From assembly GCF_000429945.1 (NCBI RefSeq), contig NZ_AUCV01000026.1, positions 1 through 64,000 of the forward strand: a stretch of 64,000 nucleotides of DNA, in the 5' to 3' direction. Source of the stretch: Desulfogranum japonicum DSM 18378. GTDB taxonomy: Bacteria > Desulfobacterota > Desulfobulbia > Desulfobulbales > Desulfobulbaceae. Below, piece after piece: positions 3,465 through 57,207 of this stretch. Position 1 is the stretch's first letter. Each line of letters starts with the position of its first letter. The notes beneath the pieces were generated by a model, which was not told the DNA's origin, did no database searches, and saw only the letters and a program-made list of their open reading frames with translations. A program made the position numbers and the translations under genes.

Positions 3465-3812
3465 ATCTTTTTGAGTCAGAGAATGTGCTGCGATGTTTTT
3501 TATTTAACCTGTTGAATATTTTTGTTTTTCGAGTAGGTGACTGGCTGGTGTATAATTGGAAATAGCTTGGATTGAAAAATTATCTTGAATATTCAGATCG
3601 TTGTATTATATAGTTCCGAGCCGATTTTATAGGGGAAATTCCAGAGCCCAGAATGCTTAAGGGTAATATAGTTGTTTGACTATGTTTTCCTGTTACACAG
3701 GGTGAAAAAGTAACACTAGGTTGACGAATTTTTCTTGACAGCCTGTAGGTTTGCAGGTATTTATACAGAGTTTGACTCATACATCAACACTAATGTGTTA
3801 TAATAAATGAGT
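3465..3812. other. Spacer between recR and tRNA-Val with promoter candidates
   Basis: There is no convincing gene in this AT-rich stretch. TTGACA at 3735-3740 followed after 17 bp by TATTTA at 3758-3763 is one promoter candidate. A perfect TATAAT at 3799-3804 lies where transcription would begin 1-2 nt before the tRNA. The TTGACT at 3772-3777 is 21 bp from that box, which is too long for a standard pair. The tRNA, and perhaps thrS, is presumably transcribed from here. Confidence 0.5.
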
Positions 3813-3887
3813 AGGCGCGTAGCTCAGTGGGAGAGCGCTACCTTGACGTGGTAGAAGTCGGCGGTTCGATACCGCCCGCGCCTACCA
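3813..3887 (+). tRNA. tRNA-Val (anticodon GAC)
   Basis: A 75-nt cloverleaf is readable. The acceptor arms AGGCGCG and CGCGCCT enclose a D arm, an anticodon stem CTACC/GGTAG with loop TTGACGT (anticodon GAC at 3845-3847) and a T arm GGCGG-TTCGATA-CCGCC. The CCA end is encoded (3885-3887). It lies 74 nt before the thrS start, so both may share a transcript. Confidence 0.97.
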
Positions 3888-3895
3888 AAAATAAT

Positions 3896-3951
3896 GAAAG
3901 GCTAGGATACAGTGGAGAGGTCTGTCCATTGGTCATTAGCCTTTCCTTTTT
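3896..3951 (+). terminator. Hairpin with T run between tRNA-Val and thrS
   Basis: GAAAGGCTA (3896-3904) pairs perfectly with TAGCCTTTC (3937-3945) and is followed by C and five T. The 32-nt loop can form an inner helix (GGA..CAG at 3905-3912 with CTGTCC). It would terminate the tRNA transcript, or attenuate thrS because it ends only 10 nt before the thrS start. Confidence 0.6.
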
Positions 3952-3961
3952 AAAGGTAAGA

Positions 3962-5893
3962 ATGGCAGAGATATCAGTTTCCATAGCAGGCGGTGAGTCA
4001 AAGCAGTTTTCAGAAGGAATTGCTGCTGCAGATGCAATAAAAGACTTGGTTTCAAATAAACAGCGGAAAAAAATCATTGCTGTTAGAGCCGAAGACAATA
4101 TTGTTGATCTTACTACGCCTTTAACGACTGATGTCGAGTTGCAGCCTATAGAAATAGGATCTCCCGAATCTCTGGAGATTTTGCGCCATTCAGCCGCCCA
4201 TATTATGGCGCTAGCCGTGAAGGAGCTGTATGGCGATGGTGTAAAGGTCGCCATAGGGCCAGCTATTGCAGATGGGTTTTATTACGATTTTGATCGTGAA
4301 AAGGCTTTTACGCCTGATGAATTCGAAGCCATTGAATCAAAAATGGCTGAACTTGCAGAAGCCCGGATACCCTTTGTTCGTAAAGTTGTGGCAAAACAGG
4401 CTGCTGTAGATTTTTTTCAGAAAGCCGGCGAAGAATATAAGCTGGAGCTGTTGGGGGAAATAGAGTCTGATACAGTTTCCCTGTACGAGCATTCAAGTTT
4501 TACAGACCTTTGTCGTGGACCACATATACCTGATTCTTCCTGGCTTAAAGTCTTTAAGTTATTACGAGTGGCGGGATCTTATTGGCGAGGGGATGAGACT
4601 CGCCCAATGCTTACGCGTATTTATGGGACCGCTTTTTTTGACCAAAAAGAGCTGAAAAAATACCTGACCCAACTGGAAGAGGCCAAAAAACGTGATCACC
4701 GTAAATTAGGTAAGGAACTTGGCCTGTTTACCATACAGGATCAAATCGGACCAGGCCTGATTTTGTGGCAACCACGAGGTGCTCTTCTGAGGAAGCTCAT
4801 CGAAGATTATTGGAAAGATGAACACTATAAGAATGGCTATCAGCTATTATATACTCCGCATATAGCCAGGCAAGACCTCTGGAAGACATCAGGTCATTTG
4901 GATTTTTATGGTGAGAATATGTATTCAGCCATGGAAATTGATGAGGTTAAATACCAGCTGAAGCCAATGAACTGCCCCTTCCACATTGGGGTGTTCAACT
5001 CTACTAAACACAGCTATAGAGAATTTCCTATTAGATGGTGTGAGCTCGGCACAGTATATCGTTATGAGCGTACAGGAGCTCTCCATGGCCTTATGCGTGT
5101 TCGTGGTTTTACTCAGGATGATGCCCATATTTTTTGTCGTCCCGATCAGCTGGAAGAAGAAATTTTCAATATCATTGACTTGAACCTTCATATTCTTAAA
5201 ACTTTTGGGTTTGATCAATATGATGTATATCTCTCTACCAGGCCGGAAAAATATGTAGGTTCCGACGAACATTGGGAACTTTCCACCTCTGCGTTAAAAC
5301 ATGCTTTGGAGAAAAAAGGCCTCGCTTATGAGGTCGATCCTGGTGAAGGTGTATTTTATGGTCCGAAAATTGACATAAAGATCAAAGATCAGTTGGGACG
5401 CTCCTGGCAGTGCTCTACGATTCAAGTTGATTTTAACTTGCCTGATCGTTTTGAAATGTCGTATACAGGAGAAGATGGAGCTGAGCATCAGCCCATCATG
5501 ATCCATAGAGCACTTATGGGTTCACTGGAGCGGTTTATAGGTGTGCTCATTGAACATTATGCCGGTGCTTTCCCTATATGGATGGCACCTGAACAAGCAC
5601 GAATCCTTAATATTACCGATGATCAGGCTGAATATTGTGAGCAGCTGTTTGGTCAATTACGCCTGGCTGGCGTTCGTATAGAAAAAGATCTGCGCAACGA
5701 AAAGTTAAATTATAAAATTCGTGAAGCACAGCTCATGAAAATACCCTATATGCTAATCATTGGCGATCGCGAAAAAGAAGAAGGTTTGGTAACCGTACGT
5801 TTACGTAACGGAAAAAATCTTCCGCCTATGCGACCTGAGGAATTCATTGAGCATATTCAAAAAGAATGCGCTCAAGGCATATGTCCTGAATAG
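3962..5893 (+). CDS. thrS: Threonine--tRNA ligase
   Basis: Class II aminoacyl-tRNA synthetase of 643 aa. The ATG at 3962 is preferred because the longer open frame runs back through the tRNA gene; AAAGG precedes it. The domains are an N-terminal TGS domain (about 1-62), the editing domain with HSAAH (H76, H80) and DLCRGPH, a catalytic core with zinc-ligand motif MNCPFH and class II motifs (YRYERTGALHGLMRVRGFTQDDAH), and an anticodon-binding C-terminus. It starts the translation cluster thrS-infC-rpmI-rplT-pheS-pheT-ihfA. The 3896-3951 hairpin may control it. Confidence 0.97.
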   Translation: MAEISVSIAGGESKQFSEGIAAADAIKDLVSNKQRKKIIAVRAEDNIVDLTTPLTTDVELQPIEIGSPESLEILRHSAAHIMALAVKELYGDGVKVAIGPAIADGFYYDFDREKAFTPDEFEAIESKMAELAEARIPFVRKVVAKQAAVDFFQKAGEEYKLELLGEIESDTVSLYEHSSFTDLCRGPHIPDSSWLKVFKLLRVAGSYWRGDETRPMLTRIYGTAFFDQKELKKYLTQLEEAKKRDHRKLGKELGLFTIQDQIGPGLILWQPRGALLRKLIEDYWKDEHYKNGYQLLYTPHIARQDLWKTSGHLDFYGENMYSAMEIDEVKYQLKPMNCPFHIGVFNSTKHSYREFPIRWCELGTVYRYERTGALHGLMRVRGFTQDDAHIFCRPDQLEEEIFNIIDLNLHILKTFGFDQYDVYLSTRPEKYVGSDEHWELSTSALKHALEKKGLAYEVDPGEGVFYGPKIDIKIKDQLGRSWQCSTIQVDFNLPDRFEMSYTGEDGAEHQPIMIHRALMGSLERFIGVLIEHYAGAFPIWMAPEQARILNITDDQAEYCEQLFGQLRLAGVRIEKDLRNEKLNYKIREAQLMKIPYMLIIGDREKEEGLVTVRLRNGKNLPPMRPEEFIEHIQKECAQGICPE

Positions 5894-5936
5894 AATCAGG
5901 GCGGCTCATACAGACAATTCAACTGGAGGAACGGAC

Positions 5937-11680: not shown

Positions 11681-11757
11681 CGGAACGTAGCGCAGCCTGG
11701 TAGCGCACCTGAATGGGGTTCAGGGGGCCGGAGGTTCAAATCCTCTCGTTCCGACCA
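11681..11757 (+). tRNA. tRNA-Pro (anticodon GGG)
   Basis: A 77-nt cloverleaf has acceptor arms CGGAACG and CGTTCCG, anticodon stem CCTGA/TCAGG with loop ATGGGGT (anticodon GGG at 11715-11717), T arm GAGG-TTCAAAT-CCTC and an encoded CCA (11755-11757). A strong terminator follows, so it is probably a monocistronic tRNA gene. Confidence 0.97.
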
Positions 11758-43050: not shown

Positions 43051-44040
43051 TTAAAAGAGTAATTCTTTGCCTAAAATTGATACCAGTTCATCTGCAGCAC
43101 GGGTTGGAGCCATATTGCCTGTCTCAACTCTCTCTTTGATGGTAGGTAAGACTTTCTGTATCTCCTCATGATTATAAAACCATGTTTCCAGGCCTTCTTT
43201 GACAAGGAACCACATCCAGGACATTGACTGGTCTCTACGCTTTTCTTCAAGCTCACCGGTGGCAGTCATTATCTTCTTATGCTGAGTAATGGTATCCCAT
43301 ACCTCCGATAAACCTTTCTCTTCCAGGGCGCTACAAGTCATAACAGGTGGAGTCCAGTTTGGTGATGATGGTGTGACAAGATGCAGGGCCGTTTCGTATT
43401 GTTTTTTAGCTAGTTTAGCACGGGTGATATTGTCACCGTCAGCTTTGTTGACGACGATTGCGTCAGCAACCTCAAGAACACCTTTTTTAATCCCCTGAAG
43501 TTCGTCGCCAGCCCCTGAAATCTGGAGTACCAGAAAGAAGTCTACCATGGAAGCAACAGTGGTTTCAGATTGGCCAACGCCCACTGTCTCTACGATGATG
43601 ACATCAAAACCTGCGGCTTCACAGATCAGCATGGTCTCCCGTGTTTTCCTTGCTACTCCGCCGAGGCTCCCGCCTGAAGGGGATGGGCGGATAAACGCCA
43701 TATCATTTACAGCAAGGCGCTCCATACGTGTTTTATCGCCTAAGATGGAGCCACCACTGCGTGTGGAACTGGGATCGATTGCCAGCACAGCAACCCTATA
43801 TCCCAACCCGGTTAGCATAGTTCCGAAGCTTTCAATAAATGTACTCTTTCCGGCTCCCGGAACTCCGGTAATCCCAAGCCTGACTGCTTTGCCAGTATGA
43901 GGCAGTAATTCGCTGATTACCTCCCTGGCAATGTCCTGATGGGTAGACAATTGACTTTCAATGAGAGTAATTGTCCGCGCGAGCATCAGGCGGTTAAAAT
44001 CGAGTACACCTTGTATGTAATAGCTGGGATCTTTAAACAT
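43051..44040 (-). CDS. meaB: Methylmalonyl-CoA mutase-associated GTPase MeaB
   Basis: G3E-family GTPase of 329 aa (ArgK/MeaB) that protects and loads the adenosylcobalamin mutase. Visible are the P-loop GVPGAGKST (about 59-67), LAIDPSSTRSGGSILGDKTRM, ETVGVGQSE and the NKADGD specificity motif. The C-terminal dimerisation arm is present. It is the last gene of the CoA-transferase, epimerase, mutase, meaB series, 86 nt after the mutase. Confidence 0.95.
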   Translation of the reverse strand: MFKDPSYYIQGVLDFNRLMLARTITLIESQLSTHQDIAREVISELLPHTGKAVRLGITGVPGAGKSTFIESFGTMLTGLGYRVAVLAIDPSSTRSGGSILGDKTRMERLAVNDMAFIRPSPSGGSLGGVARKTRETMLICEAAGFDVIIVETVGVGQSETTVASMVDFFLVLQISGAGDELQGIKKGVLEVADAIVVNKADGDNITRAKLAKKQYETALHLVTPSSPNWTPPVMTCSALEEKGLSEVWDTITQHKKIMTATGELEEKRRDQSMSWMWFLVKEGLETWFYNHEEIQKVLPTIKERVETGNMAPTRAADELVSILGKELLF

Positions 44041-44071
44041 AGTGGTAGTCTCAAAAAAGGATTAAATAAAG

Positions 44072-44101
44072 ACAGACGGATGAGTTGCCCCATCCGTCTG
44101 T
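44072..44101 (-). other. Hairpin between the mutase and meaB
   Basis: ACAGACGGATG (44072-44082) pairs perfectly with CATCCGTCTGT (44091-44101) around 8 nt. The following minus-strand sequence CTTTATTTAA is only moderately T-rich. It could be a partial terminator lowering meaB expression or a processing site. Confidence 0.55.
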
Positions 44102-44126
44102 ATATTCAGCCGAGGATCTTAAAGGC

Positions 44127-46271
44127 TTATTTGAGGTATTGTGCTTCCAAAAGATCCATGACTTTTCCTGCAGAAGTGGTGATCGGCGTACCTGGGCCGA
44201 AAACAGCTTTACAACCAGCATTAAAGAGGAAATCATAATCGCTTGGTGGAATAACGCCACCAGCAACTACGCCGATTTCTCCTGCGCCCTGCTCTTTAAG
44301 TTTAGCAATCAACTCAGGTACAAGGGTCTTATGTCCAGCTGCAAGGCTGGAAGCGCCGACGATATGGACATCGTTTTCGATAGCCATTTTCGCAGCTTCA
44401 TCAGGCGTCTGGAACATGGGGCTGATATCAACATCAAATCCGAGATCAGCAAAAGAAGAGGCTACAACTTTGATACCTCGATCATGTCCATCCTGTCCCA
44501 TTTTGGTCACAAGAATACGAGGACGACGTCCTGTTTTCTCCAGGAATTCACCTGTACGTTTACGGAAAGACTCAATGATTCCTGCGCTTTCACTGCTAGC
44601 CTCGCTGTATTCAGAAGAATAAGCGCCTGAGACACATTGAGTTGTGGCAACGTAGCGTCCAAAAACTTTTTCCATGGCGTCAGAAATTTCTCCAACTGTT
44701 GCGCGTGCTTTGGCTGCGGCTATGGCAACTTCCAGCAGGTTGCCATTACCTTCTGCGGCTTTGGTAACAGCCTCAAGGCACGCTTGGGTTTGAGCTTCGT
44801 CACGGGTAGAGCGGATTTCTTTAAGCCGATCAATTTGCTCCAAGCGGACTGAATCGGGTACTTCCAGGATATCGAAGTCAAGTTTTTCGTCTTCAAGACG
44901 ATATTTATTCACACCGACGATAACATCTGAACCTTGGTCAATGCGTGCTTGACGACGGGCAGCAGATTCTTCGATACGCATTTTGGGCATACCGGATTCG
45001 ATGGCTTTTGCCATACCGCCGATCTCTTCAATCTCATCAATGATTGCTTGAGCTTTCTCAACAATTTGATTGGTAAGATACTCGATGTAGTAAGAGCCGC
45101 CAAGAGGATCAGCGACTTTACAAACATGAGATTCTTCCTGAATAATGATCTGGGTGTTACGTGCAATACGTGCGGAGAAGTCTGTAGGCAGACAAACAGC
45201 CTCATCATAGCTGTTGGTATGCAGTGACTGGGTGCCGCCAAGAGCTGCTGACATAGCTTCCATGGTTGTACGAATGATGTTATTGTACGGATCCTGCTCT
45301 GTCAAACTCCAACCGGATGTCTGGCAATGGGTACGCAGCATGGAAGATTTCGGATTGGATGGATTGAATTGCTGCATCAAGCGGTGCCAGAGAAAACGGG
45401 CAGCGCGCAACATGGCGATATCCATGAAAAAGTTCATGCCAATGCCGAAGAAGAAAGAAAGGCGTGGAGCAAAAGTGTCAACACTCATACCTGACGCTAT
45501 GGCAGCACGGACATATTCAACACCGTCAGCCAGGGTGAAGGCTGTCTGCAGTACAGAATCAGCACCTGCTTCCATGATATGGTAGCCGCTGATACTGATA
45601 GTGTTGTATTTTGGCATGTTTTGAGAGCAGAATGCCATGATGTCTGAGACAATTCTCATGGAAGGCTCAGGTGGGTAAATATAGGTATTTCTGGTAAGGT
45701 ACTCTTTCAAAATGTCGTTCTGGATGGTACCCGTCAATTGCTCCTGCTGAACTCCTGATTCCTCAGCAGCCGCAATCCACATGCCGAGGATAGGAATAAC
45801 CGCACCGTTCATGGTCATGGATACAGACATTTTGTCCAGAGGAATACCATCAAAGAGGATTTTCATATCCTCTATTGAATCAATGGCAACACCTGCTTTA
45901 CCGATATCACCGGCAACACGAGGATTGTCAGAATCGTAACCGCGATGGGTGGCAAGGTCGAAAGCAACGGAAAGACCTTTCTGGCCTGCAGCGAGATTAC
46001 GGCGGTAGAATGCGTTAGACTCCTTGGCTGTGGAGAAACCAGCATACTGTCGAATAGTCCATGGGCGACCGGCGTACATAGTAGCCATGGGTCCGCGAGT
46101 ATATGGTGCCAGACCAGGATATTGTACTTTGGTCTCTAACCCCTGGATATCATCTTCTGTGTACAGGCATTTCACGTCAATACCTTCTGGAGATTTCCAG
46201 GTAAGAATATCGGGTGATTTGCCTTTCATTTGCTTGGTTGCAAGTTCAAGCCATTGTTCTTGTGTTGCCAT
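44127..46271 (-). CDS. mcm: Methylmalonyl-CoA mutase
   Basis: Single-chain mutase of 714 aa converting methylmalonyl-CoA and succinyl-CoA with adenosylcobalamin. The N-terminal (beta/alpha)8 barrel holds [16 protein letters not shown] and [32 protein letters not shown]. The C-terminal cobalamin-binding domain has the DxHxxG motif in [10 protein letters not shown] (about residue 595) and the GASSLAAGH and GGVIPP loops. It lies between the epimerase and MeaB genes, fitting propionate oxidation or formation through succinate. Confidence 0.96.
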
Positions 46272-46323
46272 GTCCTTACTCCTTGTTTAATACGAAGGGT
46301 TATTCCCCTATTACATGATGACG

Positions 46324-46368
46324 TGTTCCATAAAGCTGTAGAGAACATCTCTGATCAGCTTCATGGAA
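46324..46368 (-). other. Hairpin between the epimerase and mutase genes
   Basis: GTTCCAT..AAGCTG (46324-46338) pairs with CAGCTT..ATGGAAC (46355-46368), with an inner AGAGA/TCTCT helix. No T run follows. It lies upstream of the mutase start on the minus strand and may influence mRNA processing. Confidence 0.5.
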
Positions 46369-46440
46369 CCAATTGTAAATAATTATATTGACCACAATTA
46401 TTCGTTGCCGCGAACAATTGTGGGGTAACTGCAACTGCTA

Positions 46441-46845
46441 CTAGTTTCTTTCACACAGTTCAACCAGAACGCCACCGGTTGCCTTAGGGTGCAGGAAAGC
46501 GATTTTTGCTCCGCCAGCGCCGATACGGGGAGTCTGATCAATAAGTTTAACACCTTTCTCTTTCAGTTCTTCTAGAGCCTCTTCAATATTTGCTACACGA
46601 AAAGCAATGTGTTGAAATCCTGCTCCCTTTTTCTCAATGAATTTTGCTACAGGACCATCTGGAGAGGTAGATTCGAGCAATTCCACTTCGCTTTCTCCAA
46701 CAGGGAAAAAAGCAGTTGTTACTTTTTGTTCTTCTACAGTCTCAGAGCCTTCAAATTCAAGACCAAGTACGTCTGTCCAAAAATTTTTTCCATCTTCAAT
46801 GGAACCTACAGCAATACCGAGATGATCAATTTTTTCAATTTTCAT
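46441..46845 (-). CDS. mce: Methylmalonyl-CoA epimerase
   Basis: Protein of 134 aa of the glyoxalase/VOC fold. The ATG encoding MKIEKIDHLGIAV is chosen (46845): AGGAG lies just upstream, and the 11 residues of the longer frame are unlike the family. Metal ligands are expected at H8 (IDHLGIAV), the GFQHIAFRV histidine and E131 of the terminal LVELCERN. It interconverts (2S)- and (2R)-methylmalonyl-CoA and directly precedes the mutase. Confidence 0.95.
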   Translation of the reverse strand: MKIEKIDHLGIAVGSIEDGKNFWTDVLGLEFEGSETVEEQKVTTAFFPVGESEVELLESTSPDGPVAKFIEKKGAGFQHIAFRVANIEEALEELKEKGVKLIDQTPRIGAGGAKIAFLHPKATGGVLVELCERN

Positions 46846-47085
46846 TGTGTTACTCCTTTCATGAAGCCTAACGGCCAATAGTATAATTTATATCCAGCGT
46901 GTGTTTTGTACTTGATCCTTGTATTAAATGAGATGGATGCCATCTCTACTTTGGTCAGTTATCAACTATCTCTTTTATCGGTTACTGTGGACCAAATATT
47001 TCCTAACCACAAGTTTTTCCGGTTTACATGCAGCATGAGGTACAACTCTGTTTCAGGTTTTATCTCATCTCAGTCGAACTGGAAA

Positions 47086-47120
47086 AAGCAGTGTCCCTTT
47101 ATCAAAAGGGGACACTGCTT
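47086..47120 (-). terminator. Terminator-like hairpin between CoA-transferase beta and epimerase genes
   Basis: AAGCAGTGTCCC (47086-47097) pairs with GGGACACTGCTT (47109-47120), extended by an AAAGG/CCTTT-type helix. On the minus strand, where these genes are read, five T residues follow. It lies 19 nt past the transferase stop and 240 nt before the epimerase, so it may separate or attenuate the two halves of the cluster. Confidence 0.75.
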
Positions 47121-47138
47121 GGAATAACGAGGATGAAA

Positions 47139-47933
47139 TTACGCTCGTTTAACAAAAGCCCCGTTTGGATCAATATCTTCGCGAATCATACGTACTTCTT
47201 CCTGGGTAGGTGCTGTAAATTCACTGACATTATCTGCTACCAGCAGTTCAAAGCCGGTGTTAGCCTGGATTGATTCAACAGTTTCACCCGGGAACGTATG
47301 GATAAGTCTCATACGTTTTGACTCCTCTTCGAAATCAAAAATACCTTTGGTTGTGATAACACGATAAGGGCCTTTCCCCTGCATACCGGCTTTAAAACGG
47401 GCATTTGGAGATCCATCAAGGTGGCCGGGGCTGGTTACATATTGCAGTTTTTCACTGAATTTTCTCTTATCATGGGGCACGATGAGGATGGTACGCTCGC
47501 AGGATGCAGCCATGTCACTCGCACCACCACTACCTGGTAAACGTACTTTAGGCGTCTGGTAGCCACCAGGAAAATCACCAATCATCGTTGAATTCAGGTT
47601 GCCGTACATATCAACCTCAGCTCCCCCGATAAAATCAAAATCTGCAAAACCTCGCTGGGTCATCTCAAAGGCAGCATTGAGACCCTTTGCATAGCAGGCG
47701 CCGGTAATGGTTTTTGAATCACCAACAGAGATAGGCAGACCAACTTCCAGAGGGGGACCAACTGCACCCGCCTCAAATACGGGGATAAGGCCTGGGGCAT
47801 GGGTTCGTTTAGCGAGTAGAGCCGCTACCATGGGTAGGCCGGTTCCTACAAACACTATTTTGTTGTTTTCCAATATTTTTGCACCCGCCACGACGATTAT
47901 TTCTTGGGCGGTGTAATCCGTTGAAGCTGTCAT
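47139..47933 (-). CDS. Family I CoA-transferase, beta subunit
   Basis: Protein of 264 aa resembling the glutaconate CoA-transferase beta subunit. It has the segments KIVFVGTGLPMVAALLAKRTHAPGLIPVFEAGAVGP (with the expected catalytic glutamate in FEAG), FDFIGGAEVDMYGNLNSTMIGD and PGSGGASDMA. Fifty-seven nt separate it from the alpha subunit. The acyl group cannot be read from sequence; with the methylmalonyl-CoA genes next to it, propionate, succinate or a related short acid is plausible. Confidence 0.85.
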   Translation of the reverse strand: MTASTDYTAQEIIVVAGAKILENNKIVFVGTGLPMVAALLAKRTHAPGLIPVFEAGAVGPPLEVGLPISVGDSKTITGACYAKGLNAAFEMTQRGFADFDFIGGAEVDMYGNLNSTMIGDFPGGYQTPKVRLPGSGGASDMAASCERTILIVPHDKRKFSEKLQYVTSPGHLDGSPNARFKAGMQGKGPYRVITTKGIFDFEEESKRMRLIHTFPGETVESIQANTGFELLVADNVSEFTAPTQEEVRMIREDIDPNGAFVKRA

Positions 47934-47990
47934 GATAACTCCTTGTCTTCTATTTTCGATGGGTTCCCGTGTAATGTGAAAAGATTTCCT

Positions 47991-49007
47991 CTAAGCCAAA
48001 CGTTCGCAGTTGTACGCTTCTGCCTTTTGATCAGCTAACAGTTTTGATAACGGGAATTGCTCGAGGAACCCTTCGAAGGATTCGACACCGAAAATATATT
48101 TATCATAATAAGCTTTGAGTTTATCTGCCGGCTCGCCTTTGCACATAACCGCTGCAGCTGCATGGAGTTCACGGATGTGGTCCCCATTAAAATAATAATG
48201 ACGGCGGCATAAACCTGGATAGGCCCCGTAAGGCACTTCTACGACTGCATCTACTGCAGGGAAGGGGATTCCGACTTCTTTAGGTGAACTGGTGATCAGT
48301 TCATGGGAAACAAGTTGCTCACAGGTGATAATGGTTCGAGCAGAAGCCATTGCTATTTCAGCACAGGTACAGTCAGTACCGCGGATAATGCAGTTGCCGT
48401 ATTTGTCTGCTGCATTGACATGGATGATAGCAACATCGGGGTTGCTCGCGGGAAGCAGAGCGATAGGACGTCCTGTGAATGGGCAATCCATGATTTTCGT
48501 TCTGCAACTGGAAGGTATATCACCGGCCATCGGCCCTCGGGTTGGAATAAAAGGTAATCCCATGGAGCCTGCCTTAAAGCGGGCAGACATGTTGTAATTA
48601 CTCCAGTCTTCGAGTTCGATTTTTCCACGTTCTGCCAGATAGCGAAACATTGGGGAAAGACCAAAAGACTCATGTGCCCAATAGGCTATTTCGACACGTT
48701 TGATGGAAAAATGACTATCATCGACCATCATGGCGCCTGCCAGATAATCTGGTCCCAGACCTGCTGACTGCCAGGAGAGGGTGAGGTCTTTGAAACCATG
48801 GCGCACCATCTCATGGGTGATGGCAATGGGCTGGCGAATATTTACGAATCCACCAACACCAACATTGTCACCATCTTTGATGAATTTGTCGACAGCTTCT
48901 TTCAAGCTCATACGCTTATCACGCATGGATTTGTCTTTGTTGACAAGTGCTTCCCTTGCCTCGTCGGGAGATAAACCTGTCCAATACATTTCAGCGTTGT
49001 TTTCCAA
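47991..49007 (-). CDS. Family I CoA-transferase, alpha subunit
   Basis: Protein of 338 aa resembling glutaconate CoA-transferase alpha. Features are DKFIKDGDNVGVGGFVNIRQPIAITHEMVRHG, a DLTLSWQSAGLGPDYLAGAMMVDD segment and AIIHVNAADKYGNCIIRGTD. It is the first gene of the minus-strand run ending at meaB. A 590-bp spacer with a minus-strand terminator-like hairpin lies upstream. Confidence 0.85.
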   Translation of the reverse strand: MENNAEMYWTGLSPDEAREALVNKDKSMRDKRMSLKEAVDKFIKDGDNVGVGGFVNIRQPIAITHEMVRHGFKDLTLSWQSAGLGPDYLAGAMMVDDSHFSIKRVEIAYWAHESFGLSPMFRYLAERGKIELEDWSNYNMSARFKAGSMGLPFIPTRGPMAGDIPSSCRTKIMDCPFTGRPIALLPASNPDVAIIHVNAADKYGNCIIRGTDCTCAEIAMASARTIITCEQLVSHELITSSPKEVGIPFPAVDAVVEVPYGAYPGLCRRHYYFNGDHIRELHAAAAVMCKGEPADKLKAYYDKYIFGVESFEGFLEQFPLSKLLADQKAEAYNCERLA

Positions 49008-49596: not shown

Positions 49597-49866
49597 ATGA
49601 AAATATTCAGGATATTCGAACTGTTTGTGGCGGAATTTGGTTGCTTTCATGCACCGTTTAACAATTACACCCTGTATCTGATTATGCTCATTGCTTTTTT
49701 TGTTTATCTGGTCTATGCATCAAAAGAGAAACTTGAGGTATTTTGGGTTTTATCGGCCCTGGCGCCTCTTTTTGTTGAACAGTTCACAGCAATGCAAAAG
49801 ATAGACGAAAAAATAGCGCCGAAGTGTGAGCTTTTTTATAAAACACATGGTGGGAGTGGATTATGA
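49597..49866 (+). CDS. Small hypothetical membrane protein
   Basis: ORF of 89 aa with one clear hydrophobic helix (YTLYLIMLIAFFVYLVYASK) and a second weaker one (LEVFWVLSALAPLFVEQF). It overlaps the adenosyltransferase start by 4 nt (ATGA), which argues that it is translated and coupled. No strong ribosome-binding site is seen at its ATG; a start at an internal ATG is possible. I do not recognise the family. Confidence 0.5.
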   Translation: MKIFRIFELFVAEFGCFHAPFNNYTLYLIMLIAFFVYLVYASKEKLEVFWVLSALAPLFVEQFTAMQKIDEKIAPKCELFYKTHGGSGL

Positions 49867-50435
49867 AAGTGTATACAGGTGGTGGGGATAAGGGGAAAAC
49901 CAGCTTGTTTTCAGGGGAGAGAGTTGAAAAACACAGTTCGCGCATTGCAGCTTATGGAGATCTGGATGAGTTGAATTCGGTCATTGGTGTTGTTCTTTCA
50001 ATGCTTCCCCAGGGGGTTAATACTCTGGAGCAGCAACTGCAGGTCATTCAGGCACGTCTTTTTCAGGCTGGCGCCTGGCTCGCGACCACGCCGGGATCAT
50101 CTGCCGCAGAATTTCTTGATCCATTTCCTGAAACACTCGTTAAGGATATGGAAAAAGATATCGATCAGTTAAGCGATGAATTGCCACCCTTGAAAGTCTT
50201 TATTTTACCTGGTGGACACACTGCGGCATCCATGTCACATGTCGGAAGGACTGTCTGTAGACGTTGTGAACGTAAAATCAGTCAACTTCTCGAAGAACAA
50301 AACAGTGACGCAGGCCAGGACGAAATGAAAACTATTCAAGTATATATCAACAGACTTTCAGATTACCTTTTCACAGTGGCCCGATACATCAATTTCAAGA
50401 CAGATACCAGGGAACGTGAATGGCAGAAAAGCTAA
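49863..50435 (+). CDS. pduO: PduO-type ATP:cob(I)alamin adenosyltransferase
   Basis: Protein of 190 aa. The N-terminus KVYTGGGDKGKTSLFSGERVEKHSSRIAAYGDLDELNSVIG is the PduO-type ATP-binding signature. The conserved C-terminal RRCERKIS and INRLSDYLFTVARYIN segments are also present. It makes adenosylcobalamin, the cofactor of the methylmalonyl-CoA mutase encoded just across the divergent spacer. The start overlaps the small ORF and the end overlaps the reductase gene by 16 nt. Confidence 0.95.
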   Translation: MKVYTGGGDKGKTSLFSGERVEKHSSRIAAYGDLDELNSVIGVVLSMLPQGVNTLEQQLQVIQARLFQAGAWLATTPGSSAAEFLDPFPETLVKDMEKDIDQLSDELPPLKVFILPGGHTAASMSHVGRTVCRRCERKISQLLEEQNSDAGQDEMKTIQVYINRLSDYLFTVARYINFKTDTREREWQKS

Positions 50436-51097
50436 AAGGTGAAAATGCTGTCAATCGGGTTACTCTGCTTGACAGGGTCTGGCTTAGTGAGGATACTTTT
50501 CAATTAAAATGTACTCGGCCGGAAGAATTTACCTTTTTGCCCGGTCAGCATGTTTCGTTTTCTGTGGGAAATTTCTGTCGGGAATACACCATGGTATCTG
50601 CGGATACTGATGATTTTTTACTTTTTCTCATTAAACGTCTCCCGGAAGGTAAATTAAGTCCTCAACTTGCTGACATGCCGTTGCAGACCCAGATAGCAAT
50701 TTCTCCTCCAGCGGGTTATCTGGTCAATCGAAACTCACCGGATATGCAGGTGTTTGTCGCAACAGGGACAGGTATTGCCCCTTTTATTTCCATGGTACGT
50801 AGTGGTGCTCGTGATTTTACCCTTATTCATGGGGCAAGGGATCGGGTAGAGTTGTTTTATGAAAAAGAACTGCAAAAACACGCTGCTTCCTACATACGAT
50901 GTCTAACTACTTCCAAAGCGGTTAATTGCAATCTTGAAGGTTTTTATTCAGGCAGGGTAACGTCTTTTTTAAAGAAATCTTTTACTGAAGGCAGATATGC
51001 ATTTTATCTTTGTGGCGTATGGGAGATGATTCAGGAAGTTACCCACATTATAGACGAGCGATTCCCTGCGTCTGTAATTTATAGTGAAGGATATTAA
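50420..51097 (+). CDS. Ferredoxin-NADP reductase-like flavin oxidoreductase
   Basis: Protein of 225 aa. The FAD-binding beta-barrel has the FREYTMVSA-type motif (REYTMVSADTDD, about 54-65) and a lysine-containing second motif. The NAD(P)-binding half has GTGIAPFISMV and YLCGVWEMIQEV (C-G dinucleotide motif). There is no iron-sulfur domain. It overlaps the adenosyltransferase by 16 nt, so a role in reducing cob(II)alamin for adenosylation is a reasonable inference; the sequence alone does not prove it. Confidence 0.83.
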   Translation: MAEKLKGENAVNRVTLLDRVWLSEDTFQLKCTRPEEFTFLPGQHVSFSVGNFCREYTMVSADTDDFLLFLIKRLPEGKLSPQLADMPLQTQIAISPPAGYLVNRNSPDMQVFVATGTGIAPFISMVRSGARDFTLIHGARDRVELFYEKELQKHAASYIRCLTTSKAVNCNLEGFYSGRVTSFLKKSFTEGRYAFYLCGVWEMIQEVTHIIDERFPASVIYSEGY

Positions 51098-51384: not shown

Positions 51385-52356
51385 ATGGCAACTGAAATAC
51401 CGGTTTATATCATTACTGATCCATCTTTTCAGAGGCATGATACTGGTGGGGGTGATCATCCGGAAGTTCCTGAACGTATGCAGGTGATTGCCCGTTTTCT
51501 CCGCAGCTGTTCCTTTACAAAGGCAATACAGCATTATTTCCCCATTCCTGCCACCAGGTCGCAGTTGCTCACTTTTCATACTGAAGACTGGCTTTTTCGC
51601 TTTGAGGAAGCAGTTCTCAGTGGTCGGACATATATTGATCACCCAGACAATCAGGTCGGTTATGAGTCCTATGAAATCGCAACCCTGTCTGCCGGGACCG
51701 GGATTCGTGGAGTTGACTTGATAGAGCAGGATTCCCAGTCCATCATTTTTGGAATTACCCGTCCTCCCGGGCATCATGCAGAGCCCAACACACCCTATGG
51801 TTTCTGTTTTTTTAATAACTGTGTTATAGCTGCCCGCTACTGGCAGAATGGTTACGGTAGAAAAAGAATTTGTATATTGGATTTTGATGCGCACCATGGT
51901 AACGGCATACAGACAGCTTTCGAAGAAGATGCTGACAGTGCGTATATATCCATTCATGAGCACCCCAGCTTCAGTTACCCAGGTACTGGATGGCCAGAAG
52001 AAACCGGCATCAAGGCCGGCAAGGGAACTATGTTGAATCTCCCTCTGCTTCCTGGGGCAGGTGATTCAGAAGTTCGCGCACTTTTCCCTCGAATTCTGGA
52101 CTTTGTTAAAAAATTTCAGCCAGATGCTTTGGTCGTCGGTGCCGGATTTGATGCCCATATTGATGATGATATGTCTGGACTGAATTTTTCCACCCGGATA
52201 TACGAAGAATTAGGAGCATTTATAGCTGAACTGGCGCATACATATACTCAGGACCGTTTTGTATCCATATTGGAAGGAGGGTACTTTCTGGAAAGTTTGG
52301 GGCCGTGTGTGGGAGCTTATTTGCAGGGAATAATTCTGTATAAAAATAAGAAATAG
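51385..52356 (+). CDS. Histone deacetylase family (AcuC-like) deacetylase
   Basis: Protein of 323 aa. The HDAC/AcuC fold shows the catalytic histidine pair in RPPGHHAEP, the FCFFNNCVIAARY segment, metal ligands in LDFDAHHGNG, and the later GAGFDAHIDDDM aspartate, so the active site looks complete. Bacterial members deacetylate acetyl-lysine or small amides. It heads a gene series with an AcuB-like protein, an acetate:CoA ligase and a GNAT-fused CoA-transferase, which favours an AcuC-like role in controlling acetyl-CoA enzymes. Confidence 0.88.
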   Translation: MATEIPVYIITDPSFQRHDTGGGDHPEVPERMQVIARFLRSCSFTKAIQHYFPIPATRSQLLTFHTEDWLFRFEEAVLSGRTYIDHPDNQVGYESYEIATLSAGTGIRGVDLIEQDSQSIIFGITRPPGHHAEPNTPYGFCFFNNCVIAARYWQNGYGRKRICILDFDAHHGNGIQTAFEEDADSAYISIHEHPSFSYPGTGWPEETGIKAGKGTMLNLPLLPGAGDSEVRALFPRILDFVKKFQPDALVVGAGFDAHIDDDMSGLNFSTRIYEELGAFIAELAHTYTQDRFVSILEGGYFLESLGPCVGAYLQGIILYKNKK

Positions 52357-52384
52357 ATAATCGACAGACCACAGGAGTATTAAC

Positions 52385-53044
52385 ATGTTTGTTCAGTATT
52401 TCATGACCCGTGATCCGATAACCATTGGTCCGGAACAAACAGTGGCCGAAGCAATCAATCTTTTGAATCATTATAAATTTCGCCATATACCTGTGGTGGA
52501 TGATGAGGGGATGCTGCTTGGCATGCTTACAGACAGAAATTTGCGATCCGCCACGCCCTCAACTGTCGCCAGAAGCAGTCAGCGACAGAATGTTGAGGAA
52601 AAGGTCAACAACACTCCGGTAAAACTGGTGATGAATGACGATTGTCTCCACTTGACCCGAATGTCTACCCTGGACAGGGCTTTGCTATTATTGCAGTCGA
52701 AAGGTATGGGAGCGCTTCCCGTACTTAATGAGACCCAGCAGGTAATAGGCGTTTTTTCCGTTATGGACCTGATGAAAGCGTACAAGGGACTTTTTGGGTT
52801 GGGAGAAAAGGGATCTTCGCTTGTCTGTATCGAAGATAACGGAGACCCCGAGGCCCTCAGTAAGATTGTCAAGGCAATGGAGGATAACAATGTGGAGTTT
52901 ACAAGGCTCATCAGGGCAAAAGCTGCAGATGGCATTGATCCGATGATTTATCTTCGCATTAATACCTATAACATTCGTTCTGTTCATAAGGCCATTGAAA
53001 AAATTGGGTTTACAATCCATATACCCAGAGTAACCAACACGTAA
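52385..53044 (+). CDS. AcuB-like CBS-ACT domain protein
   Basis: Protein of 219 aa. It has two CBS motifs (YFMTRDPITIGPEQTVAEAINLLNHYKFRHIPVVDD, about 4-45, and VKLVMNDDCLHLTRMSTLDRALLLLQSKGMGALPVL, about 79-115) and a C-terminal ACT-like region (about 140-215). The length and CBS-CBS-ACT order match B. subtilis AcuB, whose role is undefined but regulatory. It lies between the AcuC-like deacetylase and the acetate:CoA ligase. Confidence 0.85.
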   Translation: MFVQYFMTRDPITIGPEQTVAEAINLLNHYKFRHIPVVDDEGMLLGMLTDRNLRSATPSTVARSSQRQNVEEKVNNTPVKLVMNDDCLHLTRMSTLDRALLLLQSKGMGALPVLNETQQVIGVFSVMDLMKAYKGLFGLGEKGSSLVCIEDNGDPEALSKIVKAMEDNNVEFTRLIRAKAADGIDPMIYLRINTYNIRSVHKAIEKIGFTIHIPRVTNT

Positions 53045-53054
53045 GGGAGCGGTT

Positions 53055-55172
53055 TTGGAACAATTATTCAATCCTCAGTCCATAGCTATCATAGGAGCAT
53101 CGAAAACCGCAGGCAAGGTAGGGTACGAAGTGCTGCACAACCTCGTGAAAGGTGGTTTTGAAGGCCCTATCATCCCTGTGAATCAAGCCGGTGGCGAACT
53201 TCTGGGGCTAAAAGTATATAGAGATATACTTTCATATCCCGATCCCATTGATGTGGCTGTTATTACTGTTCCGGCTGAACAAGTCGCTGATGCAGCCAGA
53301 GCTGCCGTGGGCAAAAAAGTCCAAGGTGTAGTGGTTGTAGCGTCCGGATTTAAGGAATCAGGTAATATGGGCAGGGCACTTGAAGAGGAATTGATCGCCA
53401 TTTGCCGGAAAGGTAAGATTCGTTTGCTTGGCCCGAATTGCCTTGGGTTAATCAATACTGAAATAAAGCTCAACGCCTCGTTCTCCAAACGTATTCCAAA
53501 GCCTGGGGCCATGGCTATTTTTTCGCAGTCAGGAGCTCTGTGTACCGCGATGATGGATCTGGCAGATAGCAGAGAGCTGGGTCTTTCCAAATCCATTTCC
53601 ATCGGCAACAAGGCCGATATCACCGAGGTCGATGTTCTCGAGGCATTAGCCCGGGATGACAAGACCAAGGTCATTGTGGGGTATTTAGAGGACATCAGCG
53701 ATGGAGATCGCTTTGTGAAGGCTGCAGAAGATGCCTCGACAAACAAACCTGTGGTCATACTCAAGTCAGGGACGACTGTTGCCGGTATCCGTGCCGCAGC
53801 TTTGCATACAGGTGTTCTGGGAGGCAAAAGAGATACGGCTTATGGTGCAGCTTTTCGCAGGGCGGGTATATGCAGGGCTGATAGTTTTGAAGCCTTATTT
53901 GATTATTCCACGGCTCTTGCCATGCAACCCCCGCCAAAGGGCAATAGAGTTTTTGTCATCTCCAATGCAGGGGGGCCGGGAACTATAGCAGCTGATGCCA
54001 TTGAAAAAGCTGGTTTGGTTGTCTGTGAAATGAGCAGTGAGACCAAAACCGCTGTACAGCATATCTTACCCTTTGCCACTAAAGTCAATAATCCCATGGA
54101 TGTGAGTGGGGAGGCGACACCGGAGCATTTTGGTGCGCTCCTGGAGGCTGCGCAGGATGATGACTCCATTGATGCAGTGCTCATTATTCTTGCTCCCCAG
54201 TATTTGGATGAGCCAGCAGAAACGGCCAGAGCCATCGCTGGGAAACTTAATTTTACCAAACCTGTACTTGCCTCCTTTTTAGGAGGGGACGATGTTATGC
54301 CCAGCAGACGTGAACTTGCTGCGGCCAGATTACCATTTTATGCTTCTCCTGAGAGGGCTGTCGCAACCATTCGTGCTATGTATGATTATGGTGAATGGAA
54401 GCGGAGGCCTGCTCGGCATGTTATACGTTTTCCCGTTAATCGTCGGAGGGTTGAAAGGATTATATCAAGGAGGCAGAGAACTGGGCGTCTGCAAATTGGT
54501 GAAGTTAAATCCAAGGATATTTTGAAGGCCTATGGATTCCGTATTCTTGACGGGCGTATGACAGTCAGCCCTGAACAGGCTGTAGAAATAGCGCGTTTTA
54601 TTGGCTTCCCTGTGGCCATGAAAATAGTTTCTCCCTCTATTGTACACAAATCGGATCTGGGTGGTGTTCGTCTTAATGTTGGTTCCAGCCAGGAGGTAGC
54701 CGATGCCTTTGAACTTATGATGCTCCGAATAAGAAAACATGCGCCGGAGGCAAAGATAGACGGGATTTATGTCGAAAAAATGGCTGAAAAAGGGCTTGAG
54801 GTCATTATAGGTATGACACGTGATCCTCAATTCGGCCCTATGTTGATGTTTGGTTTAGGTGGTATTTTTGTCGAGGTCATGAAAGATGTAGCTTTTCATT
54901 TGGCTCCCATCACAGAGGACGAAGCCATTCAGATGCTGAGTTCCACCAGATCATACGAGCTATTGAAAGGAAAGCGTGGGTTAAAAAAGGTCGATGTGGG
55001 TGCCTTGGCTGTGGCGTTACAAAGAATTAGTCAACTGGCAACCGATTTTCCACAGATAGCAGAGTTGGACATTAACCCGCTCATTGTTGGAGAACCTGGG
55101 ACAGAGCCTGTGGTAGCTGATGCAAGAATGTCCTTTGTTAAACCGGAGAAGGATCTCCGGGCAGGTAGTTAA
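53055..55172 (+). CDS. ADP-forming acetate:CoA ligase, fused alpha-beta chain
   Basis: Protein of 705 aa. The TTG start at 53055 is supported by AAGGGAG 5 nt upstream and by the family start M-EQLFNPQSIAIIGASKTAGKVG. It has a CoA-binding Rossmann domain (about 1-130), succinyl-CoA-ligase-like domains with the phospho-histidine candidate H251 in LHTGVLGG, and a C-terminal ATP-grasp domain (about 480-700: VAMKIVSPSIVHKSDLGGVRLNV, ELDINPLIVG). It interconverts acyl-CoA, ADP and phosphate with acid and ATP. The GNAT domain found in Pat-type relatives is absent here and occurs on the next gene. Confidence 0.92.
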   Translation: MEQLFNPQSIAIIGASKTAGKVGYEVLHNLVKGGFEGPIIPVNQAGGELLGLKVYRDILSYPDPIDVAVITVPAEQVADAARAAVGKKVQGVVVVASGFKESGNMGRALEEELIAICRKGKIRLLGPNCLGLINTEIKLNASFSKRIPKPGAMAIFSQSGALCTAMMDLADSRELGLSKSISIGNKADITEVDVLEALARDDKTKVIVGYLEDISDGDRFVKAAEDASTNKPVVILKSGTTVAGIRAAALHTGVLGGKRDTAYGAAFRRAGICRADSFEALFDYSTALAMQPPPKGNRVFVISNAGGPGTIAADAIEKAGLVVCEMSSETKTAVQHILPFATKVNNPMDVSGEATPEHFGALLEAAQDDDSIDAVLIILAPQYLDEPAETARAIAGKLNFTKPVLASFLGGDDVMPSRRELAAARLPFYASPERAVATIRAMYDYGEWKRRPARHVIRFPVNRRRVERIISRRQRTGRLQIGEVKSKDILKAYGFRILDGRMTVSPEQAVEIARFIGFPVAMKIVSPSIVHKSDLGGVRLNVGSSQEVADAFELMMLRIRKHAPEAKIDGIYVEKMAEKGLEVIIGMTRDPQFGPMLMFGLGGIFVEVMKDVAFHLAPITEDEAIQMLSSTRSYELLKGKRGLKKVDVGALAVALQRISQLATDFPQIAELDINPLIVGEPGTEPVVADARMSFVKPEKDLRAGS

Positions 55173-55323
55173 TCCCTTTTTACCAGCATGGCTGAAGGTA
55201 ATTATCAGCCATTCTGATTATTGCACAGTAAAATCATGTGCGTTGGCAGCTTCTGCTGTCAAAAGGTCTCTTTCGCAGAACAATACTGCGAATACATAAT
55301 TGTTTATTAGCAAACGGTGTCTC

Positions 55324-57207
55324 ATGGTTGAATATGATCAGAACTGGCAGCAAACCTACAAAGACATGATTGCCACTCCGGCCAGGGCAGTCTCGCAGAT
55401 CAGACCTGGGCAAAGGGTGTTCATTGGTACTGGTTGTGGAGCACCTCAGGATCTCATTACATCCATGACTAAAAGGGCAGGGCAGCTGAATAATGTTGAG
55501 ATTATTCAACTCATCACCAAAGGAACAGCTCCCTATGCTGAGAAAAAATTGTCTGAATGTTTTGCCATTAACGCATTTTTTATCAGTTCCAACATTCGGA
55601 CCGTTATTCAGGAAGGATATGGCGATTATACCCCGATACTCCTTTCTGATGTTCCCAGGCTGCTTGATTCAGGCATTTTACCCCTTGATGTTGCCTTAAT
55701 CCAGGTAACCCCTCCAGATACTTCCGGAAAGGTAAGCCTTGGAATTTCAGTTGATATCGTACGTTCAGCCGCAGACAATGCTTCGCTGGTAATTGCGGAA
55801 GTAAATCCCAATATGCCCTGGACACATGGAGATACTCTGATAGATGTCTATGATCTGGATATACTTGTTCCTGTTGATCACCCTATTCTTGAGCGTAAGG
55901 TTGATCCACCCAATGAGGTCAGCAGAAGTATTGCCAAGCAGGTGGCTGCACTGATTCCCGACGGGGCAACCATTGAATTGGGTCTGGGACGTGTCCCCGG
56001 ATATGGTCGTATTCCCCAAGTGGTTATGGAGTATCTGCACGAAAGCAAAGATATCGGTTTTCATACAGAAATGATCTCAGATACCATCATGCCTCTTATA
56101 GAGTCAGGTGCTGTGACTGGGGCGAGAAAGAGCATTGATCGTGGTAAAATCACAGCTAGTTTTTGTATGGGAACCAAAAAACTTTACGAATTTATACATG
56201 ACAACCCTCTTTTTAGTTTCCGTCCAACGGAATATCTCAATGATGCCGCGGTAATAGGGAAACATAAACGGATGGTATCGGTCAATATGGCCCTTGAAAT
56301 CGATCTGACCGGGCAGGTCTGTTCCGATTCTGTTGGCGGCAAGTTTTATTCCGGCATAGGTGGTCAGATAGATTTTAACCGCGGAGCATCGCGGTCCGAG
56401 CGAGGTCGAGCCATAGTTGTCTTGCCATCACTAATGAAAGACAGTAACTCCAGCCGTATAGTTTCCACCTTACAGCCAGGTTCTGGTGTGGTTATTACCC
56501 GGGGAACAGTACATTATGTCGTTACCGAGTACGGTGTGGCCTTTCTCCATGGCAAGTCGATACAGGAAAGGGTAATGGCCTTGATTTCAATTGCACATCC
56601 GGACTTCAGGGAACAGCTGTTTAACGAGGCCGTAGAATTGAAATATCTCAGGCCTGAGCTTGCTCGGTTTGGAAACCGTTTTATCGTTCCAGCTGAAGAG
56701 GCAATGCGGGCGAATTATCTTTTACCTGAAGGCATTGATATCTCTATCCGTTCCATTCGTCCCACCGATGAACCTCATATGAGAGAATTGTTTTACAATC
56801 TTTCCCAGGAGACAGTCTATTATCGCTTCATGACCCACCATCAGCGATTTACCACCCGCCATATACAAGATTTTGTCTACATAGATCATCGGAGGGATGT
56901 GTGTATCGTGGCCACCGTGCCTGAAGCGCATGGTGAACAGATCATAGCTGTTGGACGCTATTATTTAAACGAAAAGACGAATAAAGCTGAAGTGGCTTTT
57001 ATCGTTAAAGACGATTGGCAAAATAAACGATTGGGAACCTTTCTCTTTCAGCATTTAATACATATTGCTAAGAATAATGGAATAGCCGGGTTTACTGCGG
57101 AAGTGCTTCGGGAAAACAAGCGTATGCAGAACGTGTTTAATCATTCTGGATTAAAAGTGAGCAGTAATATCGAAGAGGGCGTGTACTCATTTGTGATGGA
57201 TTTTTAG
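55324..57207 (+). CDS. Acetyl-CoA hydrolase/transferase fused to a GNAT acetyltransferase
   Basis: Protein of 627 aa. The ATG at 55324 is preferred to an in-frame TTG at 55300, though neither has a strong ribosome-binding site. Residues about 1-440 are a CoA-transferase of the acetyl-CoA hydrolase/4-hydroxybutyrate CoA-transferase type (FIGTGCGAPQDLI, ELGLGRVPGYGRIP, FRPTEYLNDAAVIG, YVVTEYGVAFLHGKSIQERV, IAHPDFREQL). Residues about 470-627 are a GNAT domain (ISIRSIRPTDEPHMRELFYNLS; acetyl-CoA loop QNKRLGTFLF near 565). It closes the acu-like series. The natural acyl substrates and the acetylation target are unknown. Confidence 0.88.
   Translation: MVEYDQNWQQTYKDMIATPARAVSQIRPGQRVFIGTGCGAPQDLITSMTKRAGQLNNVEIIQLITKGTAPYAEKKLSECFAINAFFISSNIRTVIQEGYGDYTPILLSDVPRLLDSGILPLDVALIQVTPPDTSGKVSLGISVDIVRSAADNASLVIAEVNPNMPWTHGDTLIDVYDLDILVPVDHPILERKVDPPNEVSRSIAKQVAALIPDGATIELGLGRVPGYGRIPQVVMEYLHESKDIGFHTEMISDTIMPLIESGAVTGARKSIDRGKITASFCMGTKKLYEFIHDNPLFSFRPTEYLNDAAVIGKHKRMVSVNMALEIDLTGQVCSDSVGGKFYSGIGGQIDFNRGASRSERGRAIVVLPSLMKDSNSSRIVSTLQPGSGVVITRGTVHYVVTEYGVAFLHGKSIQERVMALISIAHPDFREQLFNEAVELKYLRPELARFGNRFIVPAEEAMRANYLLPEGIDISIRSIRPTDEPHMRELFYNLSQETVYYRFMTHHQRFTTRHIQDFVYIDHRRDVCIVATVPEAHGEQIIAVGRYYLNEKTNKAEVAFIVKDDWQNKRLGTFLFQHLIHIAKNNGIAGFTAEVLRENKRMQNVFNHSGLKVSSNIEEGVYSFVMDF

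Follow-up and report, generated by a model that had tools for sequence, protein, structure and literature searches.

In enterobacteria, cob(II)alamin is reduced for the adenosyltransferase CobA by the Fpr-FldA pair, and Fpr has a low-potential one-electron role. The human methionine synthase reductase, a diflavin protein with an FMN domain, reportedly acts together with an adenosyltransferase of the PduO kind (work ascribed to Leal, 2004). In Pdu microcompartments, PduS is encoded with PduO and is reported to supply the cob(I)alamin that is then adenosylated (PMC2982820). In Brucella, a small NADH-dependent flavoprotein called CobR is reported to reduce Co(II) corrins before adenosylation; it is a homodimer with HpaC-like topology (PMC4083273). 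The potential for reducing cob(II)alamin to cob(I)alamin is given as -610 mV in free solution and as near -360 mV for the four-coordinate form on adenosyltransferases (ATRs), a value that reduced flavin can reach; flavin-driven reduction on ATRs, free reduced flavin included, has been described (PMC2982820, PMC4083273). According to the same literature, CobR is absent from many B12 producers, and the reduction of cob(II)alamin in vivo is debated, dedicated reductases being set against generic electron-transfer proteins with free flavin (PMC2982820, PMC4923194, PMC4083273). In the titles and abstract openings of the open-licence literature we found no earlier report of a pduO-FNR pair or of an FNR-rlmN linkage. 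Judging by sequence comparison, the pair described here is genuine and conserved, and most likely it is a unit for adenosylation that includes a reductase of its own; the fold of this reductase is ordinary.

The pduO-fnr pair and its surroundings

The window, a stretch of 64,000 nt of Desulfogranum japonicum DNA, carries on the plus strand the pduO gene (49863-50435) for a PduO-type ATP:cob(I)alamin adenosyltransferase of 190 aa, which belongs to this family by both PF01923 (1.7e-54) and TIGR00636 (1.4e-50), over the cut-off in each case. The fnr gene (50420-51097, plus strand) encodes a 225-aa FNR-type NAD(P)H/FAD reductase, a candidate for the protein that passes electrons to PduO-bound cob(II)alamin. 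It matches PF00970 (8.8e-9) and PF00175 (3.9e-11) above their cut-offs and has no Fe-S domain; 17 NCBIfam models were matched, and none reached its cut-off. These matches bear out the earlier note, made from the DNA letters, which had read the two genes as a PduO adenosyltransferase and an FNR reductase free of an Fe-S domain. The coding regions overlap by 16 nt (50420-50435, plus strand). All five window-genus genomes in which both genes were found have this -16 nt spacing, at L001, L002, L003, L004 and L006. A hand count of 38 loci gave 27 overlapping pairs, 9 pairs at 2-54 nt and 2 further apart; for this count duplicates were merged and start codons were set by rule, the 172-nt overlap in L125 is implausible, and L038 and L118 have no start codon.

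The pair is divergent from a mutase operon on the minus strand (43051-49007), as had been noted before. By Pfam, this operon encodes a CoA-transferase pair, a glyoxalase-fold (epimerase-like) protein, methylmalonyl-CoA mutase and MeaB. Mutase-operon genes also adjoin pduO in L031 and, read by eye, in L164-L167; in L169, likewise by eye, only the CoA-transferase pair does so. No cobalamin riboswitch reached the gathering threshold in the window or in L001-L008, and a riboswitch as the functional link was rejected on this ground. Downstream of the pair (51385-57207) lie genes for histone-deacetylase-like, CBS-domain, ADP-forming acyl-CoA ligase-like and CoA-transferase/GNAT fusion proteins, which look like an acu-type unit that controls an acyl-CoA synthetase by acetylation. 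Elsewhere the window holds a bacterial small SRP RNA and two tRNAs (463-561, 3813-3884 and 11681-11754).

Three genes overlapping end to start had been proposed, the first of them a new small membrane ORF. The overlaps of 4 and 16 nt are there; the status of this ORF as a gene is not supported. ORF89 (89 aa, 49597-49866, plus strand), which overlaps the pduO start by 4 nt, is unlikely to be a gene or to belong to the unit. It had no match in NCBIfam and a single one in Pfam, at E 0.22. In 10 other genomes no convincing homologue was found: 4 of the 10 give weak matches (E up to 1), and the strongest (E 0.0096 over 50 residues) comes from G005, where pduO itself has no match. At 33 related loci, 24 ORFs on the same strand stop close to the start of pduO; none of them resembles ORF89, the best match having E 5.7 over 6 residues. 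Inspection by eye revealed no Shine-Dalgarno-like stretch ahead of its ATG. With no family and no convincing homologue, ORF89 was also rejected as a membrane partner of the unit.

Structure of the reductase and comparison with known systems

The top solved structural matches of the AlphaFold2 model of FNR (pLDDT 93.1, pTM 0.89) are bacterial ferredoxin/flavodoxin reductases. After re-alignment the best was the E. coli flavodoxin reductase 1fdr (Z 26.2, rmsd 1.9, 211 residues aligned, 23% identity), in a ranking whose five leading rows differ by less than 1 Z. Proteins of the FNR superfamily carry an RxY(S/T) flavin motif, a glycine-rich G-G-x-AP nucleotide motif and a C-terminal E-x-(Y/F). In all 43 corrin-clade rows R54, Y56, G116, A120, P121 and E223 are invariant, position 57 is T or S, and position 225 is Y or F. 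FAD_binding_6 and NAD_binding_1 above the curated cut-off, the motifs and the fold place the protein in the Fpr-like FNR superfamily. All 43 corrin-clade rows also have Pro34, Cys161, Phe195 and Asp212. Among the 55 rows of the sister side, Pro34 corresponds to a gap, Cys161 is found in 45 and Phe195 in 7, and Asp is outside the three commonest residues at 212. These four residues may mark a partner surface. A docking tail at the C-terminus of PduO, specific to FNR-linked genomes, was rejected because similar tails are kept in G021, G074 and G004, which lack FNR.

The reductase resembles Fpr (E. coli 1fdr, Salmonella 3fpk) in its motifs, its overall fold and its two domains for FAD and NAD binding. 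Unlike Fpr, it is shorter, about 23% identical, forms its own clade and is gene-linked to pduO. Its genome also differs in having no stand-alone PF00258 flavodoxin in a PF00258 search; the two matches obtained, 406 and 408 aa long, we read as flavo-diiron proteins. The PduS of this genome is built from Complex1_51K, RnfC_N and 4Fe-4S domains and is unrelated to the FNR architecture without an Fe-S domain. The Nuo51-like FMN domain, RnfC_N and 4Fe-4S are absent from FNR, and a PduS-like assignment was rejected. The genome of the window has a second pduO (L163, G000:C46) alongside a PduS with these Complex1_51K, RnfC_N and 4Fe-4S domains, in an operon read by eye as of the propanediol-utilisation microcompartment type. 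Thus, in the same genome one PduO travels with a known Fe-S reductase and the other with FNR; two CobA/CobO genes are present as well. The HpaC-like topology of CobR is a fold other than that of FNR, and Pfam matches at E up to 1 included no HpaC-like flavin reductase domain in FNR, which places it outside the CobR group. The human methionine synthase reductase has an FNR-type flavin domain in addition to its FMN domain; of these two, the bacterial protein consists of the FNR part alone.

Linkage of the reductase to corrinoid genes

In the order set of 257 genomes, an FNR profile search at E up to 1e-25 selected 26 genomes. G042 (match 6.2e-26) was excluded, its protein L010 falling outside the FNR clade in the quick tree, which left 25 genomes with FNR. 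PF01923 was matched in 34 genomes of the order, in two of them only weakly (about 1e-12); the match in G085 is a contig-edge fragment. All 25 FNR genomes have a PF01923 match (in G085 this fragment only), and FNR was found in none of the 223 genomes without one. Co-occurrence is significant by genome (Fisher 1.5e-27) and by genus (8e-5; 4 of 8 versus 0 of 61); related genomes are not independent, so the genus-level figure is the fairer one. In 21 of the 25 genomes fnr adjoins pduO. It is unlinked in G029, G035 and G082, where it lies between tadA and uvrB (gene labels by eye), and in G076 a 4.3-kb stretch that holds a transposase-like gene (label by eye) separates it from pduO. Nine of the 34 pduO genomes of the order have no FNR (G004, G012, G017, G021, G074, G090, G122, G150 and G151); completeness is below 86% for G004, G017 and G090, and 88-100% for the other six.

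The phylum sample of 395 genomes gave FNR in 10 at E below 1e-78; the next matches fall to 1e-34 and weaker, and those at about 1e-26 to 1e-35, behind this wide score gap, were not counted as the same FNR. PF01923 was matched at E up to 1e-20 in 78 genomes, of which 9 have FNR and 69 lack it. It is adjacent to pduO in G000, G006, G087, G331, G387 and G412, and unlinked in G029 and G035. In G281 a pduO remnant precedes an intact fnr (L045; also L209 and L210), and a full divergent pduO lies on another contig. G296 (85% complete) has FNR and no pduO match. The sets overlap: 5 of the 10 FNR genomes of the phylum sample are in the order set, and G281 and G387 are also counted as L045 and L034 in the scan of named genomes.

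That scan took the best 80 of 474 loci, ranked by FNR similarity alone, so the selection was blind to pduO. Of these, L031-L052 and L056 (23 loci) were taken as Desulfobacterota; several stand under the old name Deltaproteobacteria and are labelled Myxococcota in the tree. A pduO match adjoins FNR in 20 of the 23 (best 80 of 474 loci), the exceptions being L035, whose contig equals that of G029 in length, L042 and L047. Among the 20, pduO is a truncated remnant in L045 and a contig-edge fragment in L037, one ORF intervenes in L046, the gap is 233 nt in L034, and L052, whose pduO is frameshifted in the record, was counted as adjacent.

The careful tree (85 rows, midpoint root) used 33 of the 57 sister-side rows and 6 of the 17 paralogues. 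A quick tree (117 rows, midpoint root) was also built; both omit L131, whose FNR is shorter than 200 aa, and loci with identical last 150 residues were merged. In the careful tree a corrinoid-linked FNR clade of 46 rows has bootstrap 99 and SH-aLRT 98, and its sister clade of 31 rows (96/82) comes from Bacteroidota, Spirochaetota, Kiritimatiellota, Planctomycetota and others. The quick tree agrees, with a 43-row clade (SH-aLRT 97) and a 55-row sister (91). Of the 46 rows, 39 are beside pduO (one of these a remnant) and 4 are unlinked, in genomes with pduO elsewhere; the rest are L042, L047 and L211. In L042, fnr lies 238 nt before a CobA/CobO-type adenosyltransferase gene (PF02572, 2.2e-63), the product of which is non-homologous to PduO; upstream are a PF01497 periplasmic-binding protein gene (read as btuF), an ABC ATPase gene (by eye) and a 100-aa ORF, followed by fnr. 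In L039, three CobA/CobO-like matches (3554-5319, one on the minus strand, one checked with Pfam) lie immediately upstream of a pduO-fnr pair. In L047, DUF1638 follows fnr, and the same MAG has a pduO-linked copy, L038. L211 (G296, 5150-5920) has in series a URO-D family gene, DUF2284, fnr and MtrH; it is likely a corrinoid-methyltransferase operon, with FNR as a possible reductive activator of the corrinoid methyltransferase. Corrinoid-methyltransferase systems also need reactivation of Co(II) to Co(I). The common denominator of these contexts is, as far as gene neighbourhood tells, Co(II)-to-Co(I) corrinoid reduction.

The earlier note held that reductase orthologues found mostly away from pduO genes would speak against a coupled unit, and proposed a co-occurrence survey. 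The survey given above showed the opposite distribution. With the clade mostly beside pduO, and most of its other rows either in genomes with pduO elsewhere or in corrinoid contexts, a role of this candidate in cob(II)alamin reduction is well supported. The suggestion that the reductase is dedicated to this step stands less firmly, given the 9 of 34 order and 69 of 78 phylum pduO genomes without FNR and the linkage of the sister side to radical-SAM genes.

Proposed function, rival readings and the sister branch

We propose, with a probability of about 0.72, that pduO and fnr form an overlapping two-gene unit making adenosylcobalamin for the adjacent mutase operon, FNR reducing cob(II)alamin on PduO. 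The sequences show the order and overlap of the two genes, the clade and predicted fold of FNR, its conserved motifs, and its association with three kinds of corrinoid enzyme. Most likely, FNR works as an NAD(P)H:FAD reductase and reduces cob(II)alamin on PduO either directly or via one carrier. A hydride from NAD(P)H would be taken onto the FAD of FNR, which would pass single electrons to the four-coordinate cob(II)alamin bound in the active site of PduO. Immediate adenosylation of the resulting cob(I)alamin with ATP would pull the unfavourable reduction, and the AdoCbl would be supplied to the adjacent methylmalonyl-CoA mutase operon. Electron flow from NADH or NADPH through bound FAD, pulled by adenosylation, appears thermodynamically reasonable. 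We infer that cob(II)alamin is the electron acceptor and that transfer is direct rather than via ferredoxin or another carrier.

Within this reading, FNR could instead reduce a soluble carrier, either ferredoxin or a flavodoxin-like protein that escaped detection, and this carrier would in turn reduce cob(II)alamin on PduO. We hold this variant to be plausible at somewhat under even odds. The closest fold is that of E. coli and Salmonella Fpr, and the sister side is tied to radical-SAM enzymes, which in E. coli draw electrons from carriers such as ferredoxin or flavodoxin. The lack of a stand-alone PF00258 flavodoxin in the window genome (PF00258 search only) argues against it, and no carrier gene was noticed beside the pair among the neighbours read by eye. 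It is unlikely that FNR makes free dihydroflavin, which would reduce four-coordinate cob(II)alamin without protein contact. ATRs are reported to be driven by free reduced flavin (PMC2982820, PMC4083273); yet the tight overlapping linkage, kept across much divergence, suggests more than a diffusible flavin, and the structural match to E. coli Fre (1qfj) is slightly poorer than to 1fdr (Z 23.6 against 26.2, a small gap).

We regard as very improbable an unrelated house-keeping role, the position of fnr after pduO being inherited synteny. The location of fnr between tadA and uvrB, or its absence, in some pduO genomes would fit such a role, as would flanking genes common to some loci. Since the mutase operon often adjoins pduO in the family of the window organism, part of the linkage is inherited. 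However, the pair persists while many flanks change: the nearest downstream genes (at least 100 aa) of 34 loci fall into 17 families, the largest in 9 of the 34, and the nearest upstream genes into 23 families in the 25 loci having one, numbers that may be inflated as they come from simple ORF calls. The flanks account for the pduO-fnr linkage only in part. Every FNR genome of the order has a pduO match, and the same clade has CobO and corrinoid-methyltransferase contexts, which also argues against house-keeping.

The sister side was taken as L053-L110 without L056 (57 loci of named genomes, mostly Bacteroidota, within the best 80 of 474); the FNRs of L098 and L099 are counted in the 57 and fall outside the sister clade. 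Among these loci, the gene directly downstream of FNR is a radical-SAM gene (PF04055) in 36 of 57, by RlmN models in 21 and of MiaB/MtaB type in 12, and the upstream gene is one in 8 of 55, four with a LipA domain. As a control, 3 of 109 random genes of the same loci (150-900 aa, at least 2 places away) are radical-SAM genes (Fisher 3e-18 downstream, 0.007 upstream). Some sister-side FNR genes overlap the radical-SAM gene or lie a few bases off.

Radical-SAM enzymes, too, need a low-potential one-electron donor, so the whole family looks like partner-linked low-potential donors and may serve low-potential one-electron steps generally. Sister-side FNRs are candidate dedicated reductants for radical-SAM enzymes. 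Only tentatively, and with some doubt, we suggest an as yet unnamed family of small FNR flavoproteins in which two sister lines have become dedicated one-electron donors. One would serve corrinoid partners (PduO, CobO and corrinoid methyltransferases; Desulfobacterota), the other radical-SAM partners (RlmN, MiaB/MtaB and LipA; Bacteroidota and others), and in both the electron would pass straight to the partner, with no flavodoxin involved. To our knowledge, the electron donor for RlmN and MiaB-type enzymes is unsettled in such bacteria, and the sister branch proposes reductants for them. For bacteria of the methylmalonyl-CoA pathway, the Fe-S-free FNR gene-linked to pduO is a named candidate for the debated cob(II)alamin reductant.
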